Shown piece by piece: positions 23,695 through 27,793 of a DNA stretch of 64,000 bases (position 1 is the first letter of the stretch; each line of letters begins with the position of its first letter). The stretch covers positions 2,418,001-2,482,000 of the forward strand of contig NZ_JALLGW010000001.1 in the NCBI RefSeq assembly GCF_023074835.1, given 5' to 3'. The stretch comes from Halomarina salina. GTDB taxonomy: Archaea > Halobacteriota > Halobacteria > Halobacteriales > Haloarculaceae. The notes below the pieces were generated by a model, which did no database searches, was not told where the DNA came from, and worked only from the letters and a program-made list of their open reading frames with translations. Position numbers and translations under genes: made by a program.

Positions 23695-25887
23695 TCAGTA
23701 CGCGGTGACCGTCCCGTCGACGCGGTCGGCGAGGTACCGCCGGACGTCGCCCTCGCGCCACCCCAGCGGGCCGACCACGCTCGTCGCGGCGCGAACCAGG
23801 AGGTCGGCGTAGAACGATGCGTCGTACCGGTCGGGACGCTCGGCGGCGAGTCGCACCCGGTCGCAGGACCGCCGGTCGTCGTCGACCACGACGTAGGCGA
23901 CGCCCTCGCCGGGGTGTTTCTCCATCCCGAGTCGAGCGGCGCGTTCGAGCGCTGCGACGTTCCGGGTTCGCTGTGTGTACTCCTCGGCGGCCTTCGACAC
24001 CCGATTCTCGATGCGGAGGTCGAGCGGGTCGACGTCCTCGGTTCGGACCTCGGCGAGGAACCCCCGCAGGCGGTCACAGACCCGTTCGGGCGTGCGGTGT
24101 CTGTCGAACGTCTCGACGAGCGTCCGCTGGGCGTCGGCGACGTACGGCGGCGTGCTCCGCTGGCGACACTCGACGCCGCGGAACTTGTACTGCGCGTCGT
24201 CGGGCGCGGCCGTCTCGTCGCTCCGTCGACCGAAGTACTTCGTCAGCGCCCCGTCGACGCCGGCGTCGGGAGCGTCGCCCGCGGCGGCAGGAGCGTCGCT
24301 CGACGCGGCGGGACAGAACGCCAGCCAGTCGAACCGGCCCTCGTACTCCAGGCGGATGCCGACGTCGTCGCTGACCAGCCGGCAGAGGTCGTCGAGCGGC
24401 GTCTGTGAGCGGTCGGGGTCGGCAGTCACCCAGAGGCTGTCGACGATGCCGTGGCGGACGTGCCAGCCGTGGGACTCCAGCGTCGCCTTGGTGTCGAGCA
24501 GTATCTCCCGTGCGTAGGCGTTGATGGCCTCGTGGGCCTCGATGCGGCCGTAGCGGGCGTTCGAGAACCCCTGGTAGCCGAAACAGCTCACGAGGATCCA
24601 CTTGATGGCGCTGGATATCCCCTCGGCGACCGCCCGTGCCCTGGGGTCGTCGCTCGCACGCAACGTCCCCTTGGCCCGGTCTCGGCGCTCGATGAGCGGC
24701 CCGAGCACGTCCGTCAGGTAGCCCTGCTCGTCGCAGATGCTGTAGCCCAGGCCGGGCACGTCCTCGCGGTCGGCGTGGCAGCCACAGCAGACCGTCTCGG
24801 GGCTGACGTTCCGCGTCACCATGATGTTCGGGTACAGCGCCGAGAAGTCCAGTTCGTGGACGTCCTCGTGGACGCCGACCTCGGGTTCGACCGTGTGGCC
24901 GCCCCGGTCGGCGTCCAGGTGCTGTCGAGCGCCCTTGAAGAACTCACAGCGCCACGAGTTCCACGGCACCAGCACGTTCCGCCGTCTCGCCTCCCGAATC
25001 TGGATGGCCGTGAGGACGTTCCCGATGGAGGCCCACGCGAGTTCCTGGAGCGGCTTGCGCGACTGCTCGACCACGAAGAGACAGCCCGCGAGGTTCGAGC
25101 GGTTCCACAGGAACGTGTTCGACCGGTCGACGATGACGCGCCCCGGAACCGAGTAGCGAGCGGGCGAGTGTCCTACCTCCCCGTAGCTGGTGTACGTCGA
25201 CGCGCCTGCAAGCTGCTGCCAGCCCGGCCGTCGACCGAGGAACAGGTCCTCGCGGTCGTGTGCGGCCGCCGTCGCCGAGAGCCGCGGCACCAGTCTCGCC
25301 GTGTTCAGGTCGAGGACGTCCGGGTCGGACTCCCGGAGGTGCGCGACCAGGTCGTCGAGGACGTCCTGCGGGTCCCCCGTGTAGTCGCGTCCGTCGACGG
25401 CGAGTCCGGTGATGGCGTCGCTCGCCAGTTGCGTGGCCGCGACGTCGATGGTACAGACCCGGAGCTCTCGACTGGAGTCGTCGTCCGGTTCAACGTCACC
25501 GCCGGGCAGTGGCTCGACGTCGCGTTCCAGACAGAACCGGAACTCGCGACTCAGGTCGACGTCGAAGAGCCGGTACTCGCCGGGCGTCCCCCACCCGCGG
25601 ACGGTGTGGGCGACCGACGTGACCGACTTGACGTCGTCGACGTCGACGCGCAGGACGGCCTCGGCGTCGTGGCGGAACCCCGGCCGGTGGCGCTCGTAGG
25701 CCATGTCGACGACGTGGGGGTGTTCGGCGACGAACCCGCGAATCTCGTCGAGGTCCGCCCGCTCGTGGCTGGCGGCCGAGACGTACATCGTCGGCCGGTA
25801 GTCCTCGATGCGCTCGCAGGCCACACCGTCGCCGTCGACCGACCACGCGAGCACGTCACCGTCGAGGAAGTCGAACGTGAACGGCAT
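23695..25887 (-). CDS. polB2: B-family DNA polymerase, PolB2 type, proofreading residues lost
   Basis: 730-residue family B polymerase. Motif A is DFSALYPNIM at 347-356. Motif B is degenerate around Lys429 (KWILVSCFGYQ). Motif C reads HGIVDS at 479-484 instead of YGDTDS, but the second Asp is kept, so both essential metal ligands (Asp347, Asp483) remain. The exonuclease motif I is IDVA at 147-150, lacking the essential Glu, so proofreading should be absent. The protein is shorter than replicative PolB. It is the last gene of a tight operon with a small helical protein and a RecA-fold protein. Crenarchaeal PolB2 (Dpo2) is known to act in damage-induced mutagenesis; a translesion role here is inference. 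Confidence 0.9.
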   Translation of the reverse strand: MPFTFDFLDGDVLAWSVDGDGVACERIEDYRPTMYVSAASHERADLDEIRGFVAEHPHVVDMAYERHRPGFRHDAEAVLRVDVDDVKSVTSVAHTVRGWGTPGEYRLFDVDLSREFRFCLERDVEPLPGGDVEPDDDSSRELRVCTIDVAATQLASDAITGLAVDGRDYTGDPQDVLDDLVAHLRESDPDVLDLNTARLVPRLSATAAAHDREDLFLGRRPGWQQLAGASTYTSYGEVGHSPARYSVPGRVIVDRSNTFLWNRSNLAGCLFVVEQSRKPLQELAWASIGNVLTAIQIREARRRNVLVPWNSWRCEFFKGARQHLDADRGGHTVEPEVGVHEDVHELDFSALYPNIMVTRNVSPETVCCGCHADREDVPGLGYSICDEQGYLTDVLGPLIERRDRAKGTLRASDDPRARAVAEGISSAIKWILVSCFGYQGFSNARYGRIEAHEAINAYAREILLDTKATLESHGWHVRHGIVDSLWVTADPDRSQTPLDDLCRLVSDDVGIRLEYEGRFDWLAFCPAASSDAPAAAGDAPDAGVDGALTKYFGRRSDETAAPDDAQYKFRGVECRQRSTPPYVADAQRTLVETFDRHRTPERVCDRLRGFLAEVRTEDVDPLDLRIENRVSKAAEEYTQRTRNVAALERAARLGMEKHPGEGVAYVVVDDDRRSCDRVRLAAERPDRYDASFYADLLVRAATSVVGPLGWREGDVRRYLADRVDGTVTAY

Positions 25888-25891
25888 CCAC

Positions 25892-26287
25892 TCACTCCGA
25901 GGGCGTCGACGGTCGCTCGGTCGCGCCGTTCCCGTCGCTCGCGTCGTCGGGGTCGCCATCGTCGGGGTCACCGTCGTCGGGTCCGTCGACCCTCCCGTCG
26001 GCTCCACGTTCGTCGCCGGCGCGCTCGTCGCTGCCGGACTCGACGGCCCGGAGGCGGTCGTCGAGGGCGTCGAGGCGTCGCTCCTGTTCGAGGTCGATGC
26101 CGACGAGCGCCGGGAACAGTGGCGTCTCGTGGTTGAGGTAGCTCGCCGCGTCGGCGTGGCGGCGGGCGTAGGTGAACAGGCGGTCGAACCGCGACTGGTC
26201 GCGCCGCCTGAGCGCCCGCCGGTAGTCGCCCCACCGCCGTTCGATGCCGCGCAGGAGGTCCCGGAACGTCCGGTTGGTTCGACCCAT
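25892..26287 (-). CDS. Small helical protein of the PolB2 operon
   Basis: 131-residue protein. Residues 1-85 are helical and rich in Arg and Leu (FRDLLRGIERRWGDYRRALR, then RRLDALDDRLRAVESG), possibly coiled coil. From 86 on it is a disordered acidic tail with Gly/Asp-Pro repeats. Its ATG overlaps the stop of the RecA-like gene (TGATG), and polB2 starts 4 bases after its stop. It has no Y-polymerase or beta-clamp motif that I can see. The position between a RecA-like protein and a polymerase suggests an adaptor. Confidence 0.8.
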   Translation of the reverse strand: MGRTNRTFRDLLRGIERRWGDYRRALRRRDQSRFDRLFTYARRHADAASYLNHETPLFPALVGIDLEQERRLDALDDRLRAVESGSDERAGDERGADGRVDGPDDGDPDDGDPDDASDGNGATERPSTPSE

Positions 26288-26949
26288 CAGGCCAGCACCT
26301 CCCGGCGCAGGCTCTCGCGGGCCTGCTGCCGTTCTTCGAGGACGCGCGACCAGAACGCGAGCGTCGTCTGCACGTAGTCGTGCCCGCGGTACACCAGCGT
26401 CTCGAACCCGTCGGCGACGAACCGCGGGCCGAAGCGCGTCGTCTCGACGCGCATCCGCTCGTCGGCGATACCTGCCACCGGGTCGGTCAGGTCGTCGTCG
26501 CGTTCGCGCGTCACCAGCACGGCCACGTCGTGGCGCTCGGCGACGGCCTCGACGTGACCGACGCCCGCTTCGACCATCCGCTCGGGTTCGCCGCGCGTCA
26601 GGTCGTCGCTCCGGTAGTGGTGGTCGAACGCCGGGACGACGACGAGCGCGGTGTCGCCGTCCACGCGGTCGGCCAGTCGAGCGAGCAGCGTCTGGTGCTG
26701 GAACGCCGTGAAGGCGCGCGCCATCCGAATCCTGTCGAGGAACCGCCGACTCGGTGCCAGCCGCACGAGCGACTGCGTCCGCGCGTGCCCGTGGCTGTCG
26801 GCCCACAGCGCCTCACCCGAGTGGATGAGCAGGTGGTCGACGACCAGCGAGTGCACCGCCGCGCGCACGCTGTCGTCGGTCTCTAGCAGGTGGACGCCCG
26901 TCCCGAGCGTCGGCAGTTCCGGTATCCCCTCTCCGTCCCTCTCTCGCAT
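26287..26949 (-). CDS. RecA/RadA-fold protein without Walker A (ImuA-like position)
   Basis: 220-residue protein with the pattern of a RecA-family core: LPTLGTGVHLLE at the start, then a helix, a strand ending ALWADSHGHA, a LAPSRRFLDRIRMARAFTAF segment like the RadA region after Walker A, and a strand ALVVVPAFD. The GxxxxGKT Walker A is missing, so it probably does not hydrolyse ATP normally. It is the first gene of the operon with the small helical protein and PolB2. A TATA-like GGTATATC lies about 27 bases upstream of the ATG at 26949, so the mRNA is probably leaderless. RadB-like or ImuA-like are the closest analogies. Confidence 0.75.
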   Translation of the reverse strand: MRERDGEGIPELPTLGTGVHLLETDDSVRAAVHSLVVDHLLIHSGEALWADSHGHARTQSLVRLAPSRRFLDRIRMARAFTAFQHQTLLARLADRVDGDTALVVVPAFDHHYRSDDLTRGEPERMVEAGVGHVEAVAERHDVAVLVTRERDDDLTDPVAGIADERMRVETTRFGPRFVADGFETLVYRGHDYVQTTLAFWSRVLEERQQARESLRREVLA

Positions 26950-26969: not shown

Positions 26970-26982
26970 CGGTGATATACCG
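26970..26982 (-). promoter_or_regulatory. TATA box of RecA-like/PolB2 operon
   Basis: On the minus strand this reads CGGTATATCACC, about 27 bases before the operon's first ATG at 26949. The repeat at 26980-26990 abuts it on the upstream side. Confidence 0.6.
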
Positions 26983-27086
26983 TTCCGGGTCGGTTCCGAA
27001 AGTTCCGATTGCGAGCGCTTCGGTGGATTCTCGACGCCTCGGTGCTCCTGTGGGGGTTCTGCCGGAGTTCCGATTCCGTTCCGGGT
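26980..27086. repeat. Paired direct repeats upstream of PolB2 operon
   Basis: CCGTTCCGGGT occurs at 26980-26990 and 27076-27086; AGTTCCGATT occurs at 27001-27010 and 27066-27075. TTCCG appears six times in about 107 bases. They lie just upstream of the TATA box of the RecA-like/PolB2 operon and could be binding sites for a regulator. Confidence 0.6.
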
Positions 27087-27208: not shown

Positions 27209-27532
27209 GTGACCGCCTTCGACCCCGAGCAGTTCGAGGAGAAGTACGTCCACTATCTGGACGAACTGCAGACGGCGTACCGGAACGCGTACCAGCACTT
27301 CCACGGCGAGTACGACTCGACCCTGCTCCGAGCCATCGACCGCCAGGTGCTGGACGAGAGCGAACCGTTCTACGAGGGCGACGGCGAGTTCCGCGTCGAA
27401 CTGCCCGAAAGCCCGCGCGAGCGGGTCGGAGAACTCCCGGTCGACGACGAGCGGTTCTACGCCGTCCTCGACGAGTTCGTCGACCGCATCGAGTACGAAC
27501 TCCGCCGGGTCTTCGGGTTCGAGGCGAAGTGA
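27209..27532 (+). CDS. Conserved haloarchaeal protein (DUF5783-like), unknown function
   Basis: 107-residue acidic soluble protein starting MTAFDPEQFEEKYVHYLDEL. It is largely helical by pattern and ends FGFEAK. The sequence resembles haloarchaeal proteins annotated only as a domain of unknown function. The GTG start is placed 13 bases after a perfect palindrome. It diverges from the PolB2 operon, sharing the 259-bp intergenic region with repeats; whether they are co-regulated is unknown. Confidence 0.8.
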   Translation: MTAFDPEQFEEKYVHYLDELQTAYRNAYQHFHGEYDSTLLRAIDRQVLDESEPFYEGDGEFRVELPESPRERVGELPVDDERFYAVLDEFVDRIEYELRRVFGFEAK

Positions 27533-27722: not shown

Positions 27723-27793
27723 TGCACCGGCCGGGATTTGAACCCGGGCCATGAGCTTGGAAGGCTCAGGTCCTGCCACTAGACCACCGGTGC
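27723..27793 (-). tRNA. tRNA-Gly (TCC anticodon)
   Basis: 71-nt cloverleaf: acceptor GCACCGG/CCGGTGC, D-arm GTCT/GGAC, anticodon stem TGAGC/GCTCA with loop CTTCCAA (anticodon TCC, reads GGA), T-arm CCGGG-TTCAAAT-CCCGG, discriminator A. No intron, no encoded CCA. Partial copies lie on both sides; a TATA-like AT run at about 27903-27912 is over 100 bases upstream. Confidence 0.96.

Follow-up and report, generated by a model that had tools for sequence, protein, structure and literature searches.

A PolB2 mutasome operon in Halomarina salina and a GGAA direct repeat shared with an Orc1/Cdc6 paralogue

The PolB2 mutasome and its Halomarina salina member

An archaeal operon combining the B-family DNA polymerase PolB2, the small protein arCOG07300 and an inactivated RadA was described in 2014, haloarchaea included, with Orc as a frequent neighbour (PMC4104785). 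The partner proteins were later named PPB2 and iRadA, and the heteropentamer was modelled and likened to Pol V (PMC11791011). In Sulfolobus islandicus, the PolB2 enzyme Dpo2 is damage-inducible and alone responsible for targeted mutagenesis (PMC7390963). Two promoter elements have been linked to such responses: Sulfolobus Orc1-2 binds ANTTTC in its own and in other damage promoters (PMC9738581, PMC5817253), and TTTCACTTTCA is found about 50 nt before genes induced by ultraviolet B (UV-B) in Halobacterium NRC-1 (PMC2556686). Here, we analyse a 64,000-nucleotide stretch of the Halomarina salina genome (the window; contig NZ_JALLGW010000001.1, positions 2,418,001 to 2,482,000), which carries an iradA-ppb2-polB2 operon preceded by a GGAA direct repeat.

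The three genes are all on the minus strand. iradA (26287-26949) encodes a RadA/Rad51-fold protein of 220 aa and overlaps by one base, in the sequence TGATG, with the arCOG07300-type gene ppb2 (25892-26287), which encodes a small helical protein of 131 aa; 4 bases further on begins polB2 (23695-25887), encoding a B-family DNA polymerase of 730 aa. A preliminary description of this locus gave both junctions exactly and proposed a neighbourhood survey, which found the genes linked in relatives. Of 60 PolB2 loci surveyed in haloarchaea, all from one family (the H. salina window counted, one remnant left out), 55 hold all three genes together in the order iRadA-PPB2-PolB2, and the arrangement is therefore not a product of chance. 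Of the other five, one carries PPB2 alone and four lack both partners in the vicinity. In another sample of 80 named loci, PPB2 was present in 73 and iRadA in 67; several of these 80 are truncated at the end of a contig. Insertions of 0.6 to 4.6 kb separate PPB2 from PolB2 in some haloarchaeal loci, and in a PolB2 tree the loci fall into several supported groups.

PolB2 matches the PolB2-type NCBIfam family NF004418 over residues 1-730 (E 9.6e-288) and Pfam DNA_pol_B (E 5.2e-22). Asp347 in motif A (HELDFSALYPN) and Asp483 in motif C (HGIVDSLWV) are invariant across 35 aligned homologues. The preliminary description numbered these two catalytic aspartates correctly, but missed that motif C reads I-V-D, so that Ile481 takes the place of the leading Asp in canonical D-T-D and two of the usual three catalytic carboxylates remain. 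The motif of S. islandicus is likewise 401-IID-403 (PMC11791011); our comparison with Sulfolobus was made through the motifs quoted in that paper, not through Sulfolobus sequences. The D(K/R) motif is D254-R255, with D254 at least 90% conserved. Exonuclease motif I (exo I), earlier noted as a degenerate IDVA, is indeed I-D148-V-A150, a change from DxE to DxA in which Ala150 replaces Glu. Exo I is not maintained in relatives, since they show LSVP, LDLP or IEAT at this position; exo II is also unconserved.

iRadA matches Pfam Rad51 (E 1.2e-6, passing the curated cut-off), lacks the N-terminal helical domain and has no Walker A, the expected segment reading VHLLETDDSVRAA. Its AlphaFold2 model (predicted local distance difference test, pLDDT, 88.2) finds RadA/Rad51/Dmc1 structures as top matches in the PDB (E 2e-12 to 1e-10), so that family match, sequence and model agree with the RecA-like protein without Walker A recognized at the outset. 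PPB2 begins with MGRTNRTFR, including the Arg3/Arg9 hallmark; MGRT, T7 and R24-L26-R27 are invariant in 35 aligned homologues, and an acidic low-complexity tail starts at about residue 85. Structure prediction, also proposed in the preliminary description, was applied to single proteins and gave a RadA fold for iRadA and a helical monomer for PPB2 (pLDDT 84.7), a protein described as trimeric in this system. Searches of Pfam and NCBIfam assigned PPB2 to no family at cut-off (a weak CorA match, E 0.046, was disregarded), and a Foldseek search of the PDB with its model returned no match below E 1 and did not recover the published resemblance to sigma factors.

All the sequence hallmarks of the PolB2 mutasome that can be tested here are present, and the evidence supports the H. 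salina operon as an ordinary member of this known system. It shares with the described PolB2-PPB2-iRadA mutasome the gene order, the MGRT arm, the D-K/R motif, the loss of the first Asp of motif C, a dead exonuclease and an iRadA without ATPase site. It differs in that orc is not beside the operon but elsewhere in the genome, and in that a canonical PCNA-binding motif is not seen at either C-terminus: inspection by eye of the C-terminal tails of iRadA and PolB2 revealed no canonical QxxLxxFF clamp-binding motif, and in relatives the ending DxSLxxF is frequent. Such a motif is a trait of only a fraction of PolB2 mutasome members. With Dpo2 (PMC7390963, PMC8764526) the operon shares the PolB2 family and the I-x-D motif C; induction and mutagenesis have been measured for Dpo2, whereas the H. 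salina operon is known from sequence.

The mutasome proposed in the preliminary description thus corresponds to a gene set published as such (PMC4104785, PMC11791011), and the damage induction and mutagenesis it ascribed to crenarchaeal PolB2 have been demonstrated in Sulfolobus only (PMC7390963). The haloarchaeal version with the small middle protein, which it thought worth describing, is not new, having been reported in 2014 (PMC4104785). The likeness it drew to bacterial ImuA-ImuB-DnaE2 is valid for the combination of a RecA-like protein, a small partner and an error-prone polymerase, which Pol V also has, although both bacterial systems use other polymerase families and non-homologous partners. 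Membership of ImuA-ImuB-DnaE2 was rejected, as the polymerase belongs to family B and is not a C-family DnaE2. ImuB is an inactive Y-family polymerase. Because PPB2 is no ImuB and PolB2 no C-family polymerase, Pol V (UmuC-UmuD'2-RecA) is the better parallel.

A GGAA direct repeat at the operon and at orc genes

The candidate operator of the operon is the direct repeat TCGGAACTTTCGGAACCGAC (26989-27008, minus strand), whose second GGAA ends 44 nt before the iRadA ATG. A TATA-like TATATC follows on the same strand (26974..26979, -30 to -25 of the ATG), a placement that suggests a leaderless transcript beginning near this codon; relatives have a CTTATC-like box in the same place. TCGGAACTTTCGGAACCGAC is the top-scoring site of the window, with 20.9 bits against 14.5 for the next. 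Aligned iRadA upstream regions show GGAA-N4/5-GGAA, then an ACGACnCG-like stretch, then the TATA-like box. The strict GGAA repeat occurs between -80 and -30 in 37 of 86 non-redundant iRadA promoters, compared with 0.6% of background windows of similar size. With GGCA half-sites also accepted, there are 43 sites; in 27 of these, the distance from the end of the site to the start codon is exactly 44 nt. The open-access literature yielded no haloarchaeal operator of this GGAA-repeat kind for PolB2 or Orc. The undescribed part is this promoter element and the regulon that it suggests; the three-gene set itself is known.

Pattern searches of the 4.46-Mb H. salina genome returned 26 matches to the GGAA repeat versus 3 for a reversed control pattern; matches inside genes, or without a start codon at the right distance, were not counted as promoter sites. 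The repeat precedes an Orc1/Cdc6 paralogue located 0.87 Mb from the operon (C1:1572268, 45 nt before the start; NCBIfam TIGR02928 above cut-off), a PadR-like regulator (C1:393045, 44 nt before the start; Pfam PadR above cut-off), a plasmid orc (48 nt) and, on contig C2, a 72-aa open reading frame of no known family (49 nt), after which comes a second PPB2 copy (MGKTNSTYRD) with 53% identity to that of the operon. Halomarina relatives repeat these classes: the element is found at their Orc and PadR genes and PolB2 operon, as well as at a lone PPB2-like gene and at an additional iRadA-PPB2 pair that has no PolB2. The second PPB2 copy of H. salina is at L203:960-1235 on the minus strand (C2 near 81.9 kb), and neither PolB2 nor iRadA was seen in that 3-kb stretch. 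GGAA-repeat promoters are also directed at the 3' end of a small helix-turn-helix gene, once in H. salina (C2:77691) and twice in a relative; in all three cases, their transcripts would be antisense to that gene.

An Orc1/Cdc6 homologue of the same subfamily is near the operon in most surveyed loci, usually upstream and on the same strand. The strict repeat ends 35-60 nt upstream of 31 of 53 non-redundant orc starts, and TTTCCGGAAACnACCCGG takes its place before many others. As in the Sulfolobus Orc1-2 regulon, one upstream element is common to the PolB2 operon and an Orc1/Cdc6 paralogue, and the H. salina element contains ACTTTC. However, what haloarchaea conserve, as a putative Orc target, is the GGAA direct repeat, with its centre some 52 nt ahead of the start codon; ANTTTC, present in 22 of 86 iRadA and 22 of 60 orc regions (4% in background), is not the conserved core.

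Like the GGAA element, the UV-B motif of NRC-1 is a repeat that precedes TATA, at a distance of about 50 nt from the start codon (PMC2556686). The H. salina operon differs in carrying the GGAA repeat at that position, and the 11-bp TTTCACTTTCA motif is absent from its promoter. In lineages such as Halorubrum and Haloarcula rara, the form CTTYCACTTYCA stands where the GGAA repeat would be (9 of 86 iRadA promoters, 0.1% of background). Since the two occur at the same place, two element classes occupy one promoter position. Elsewhere in the H. salina genome the 11-bp motif (TTTCACTTYCA) has 9 copies against 1 for the control, including one 59 nt before radA, one before a plasmid orc and several before unknown proteins; these copies are candidates for a second damage regulon.

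A haloarchaeal damage regulon may be outlined from these sites. Its operator, GGAA with a period of 8-9 bp and about 44 nt before the start codon, would control the Orc1/Cdc6 paralogue (its likely autoregulated regulator), the PolB2 mutasome operon, the extra iRadA and PPB2 copies and the Halomarina PadR-like protein, with a switch to TTTCACTTTCA in some lineages. We consider the chances of such a regulon to be evenly balanced.

Neighbouring genes and a stand-alone exonuclease in relatives

Many relatives have orc on the upstream side of the operon; in H. salina this side is filled by a divergent gene for a DUF5783 protein (27209..27532, plus strand; Pfam DUF5783 E 3.4e-48), which is outside the system. 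A tRNA gene is close by (27723-27793, minus strand). About eight loci (L057-L063 and other clade B loci) have a gene for SRAP (abasic-site protection) near the PolB2 operon on the opposite strand, an association already reported (PMC11791011). At a Haloarcula rara locus (L052), an open frame of 810 aa unites PPB2 and PolB2, by natural fusion or through loss of a stop; in its close relative L053 they are separate. Another contig of the H. salina genome carries a further PolB2 gene (C5:9666-10652), degraded and interrupted in frame by TAG and TAA.

In some relatives, a 3'-5' exonuclease of PolB type, encoded as a stand-alone protein and belonging to the RNase_H_2 family (PF13482), recurs in or next to PolB2 operons, those of Halovenus and Halobellus type included: of 56 family matches, 16 have a PolB2 gene within 10 kb, against an expectation of about 0.5. 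The protein keeps the acidic residues of DIET, GFD and HNxAD. Its gene can separate PPB2 from PolB2 or from iRadA, follow PolB2 directly, or lie divergent to orc (L092:10130-10783 on the minus strand, L119:3052-3714, L078:10037-10750 and L036:13087-13806; also L064, L066, L069, L143, L157, L162 and L130). It was not found in the H. salina genome, and the names RNase_H, DnaQ and DNA_pol_B_exo are absent from the main text of PMC11791011. Judging from its sequence and position, it could possibly act in trans as a proofreader for the exonuclease-dead polymerase.

Proposed mechanism and alternative explanations

We propose that iRadA, PPB2 and PolB2 are co-transcribed from one promoter just upstream of iRadA and would assemble into one complex. 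PolB2, without proofreading and with one catalytic Asp missing, would extend mismatched or lesion-blocked primer ends; iRadA would act as a non-ATPase RadA subunit holding the polymerase, and the N-terminal arm of PPB2 may bridge polymerase, iRadA and DNA. The GGAA direct repeat would be the operator of a damage regulon that includes the Orc1/Cdc6 paralogue and the PadR-like protein, with the Orc protein as the likeliest regulator, like Sulfolobus Orc1-2. We regard a mutasome operon, with the GGAA operator of an Orc-linked damage regulon as an inferred part, as a highly probable account of the locus.

Direct observation covers the order of the genes, their families, the state of their motifs, the RadA fold, the conservation of the set and the common promoter element, while complex formation, translesion activity and mutagenesis are inferred from Sulfolobus work and AlphaFold complexes (PMC11791011). 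In support of the operator, the orc and iRadA sites of one genome agree at 13.4 of 18 positions compared with 11.8 of 18 in permuted pairs (0 of 5000 permutations), a test that does not wholly tell common regulation from common descent or similar base composition. Several points weigh against this account. About half of the promoters have no strict GGAA repeat, and the iRadA start is uncertain in one large clade. The main texts of two NRC-1 ultraviolet array studies do not mention polB2. Halobacterium NRC-1 can dispense with polB2 (PMC1906834), and the gene can be deleted in Haloferax volcanii (PMC7776575), whose copy lies in the HVO_A0065 region; this fits a damage role without proving it. 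By analogy with Sulfolobus, the haloarchaeal Orc paralogue may regulate the mutasome operon, as a candidate regulator only.

Because PolB2 is linked to Orc, a role in replication initiation was proposed earlier (PMC4104785), and the three proteins might form a catalytically dead polymerase complex that acts with the neighbouring Orc in initiation or origin regulation instead of lesion bypass. The linkage is confirmed in most surveyed loci, and a motif C short of one Asp would fit a dead polymerase. Yet the I-x-D motif is also that of S. islandicus Dpo2, an active enzyme required for targeted mutagenesis (PMC7390963, PMC11791011), and the H. salina orc shares the promoter element at a distance of 0.87 Mb, which indicates co-regulation rather than a local origin role. 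We therefore find this explanation very improbable.

Two further alternatives concern the element itself. The GGAA repeat could serve as an origin recognition box (ORB) or be common to promoters in general: a GGAAAC-type sequence presumably resembles ORB elements, and a plasmid orc of H. salina has a pair of similar repeats, one at its start and one upstream of it. ORBs or general features would hardly account for a repeat that is fixed directly upstream of the TATA box (exactly 44 nt in the 27 of 43 sites), recurs at padR and iRadA promoters distant from any orc, and is as rare as 26 copies in 4.46 Mb, and we consider them unlikely. We also find it improbable that the operator is bound by the PadR-like protein in place of Orc: in three Halomarina genomes padR carries the element 44 nt before its own start, as an autoregulated repressor might, but PadR homologues of at least 60% identity were found only in H. 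salina and two Halomarina relatives, while the element is widespread. PadR was also rejected as a general regulon member, its close homologues being seen only in Halomarina.

The mutasome operon of H. salina belongs to a group with easy genetics (Haloferax, Halobacterium). If the shared element is real, it provides haloarchaea with a candidate damage regulon and a candidate regulator, and the control of damage-induced mutagenesis in euryarchaea would become directly testable. The GGAA regulon, if true, would be an Orc-based analogue of SOS in euryarchaea.

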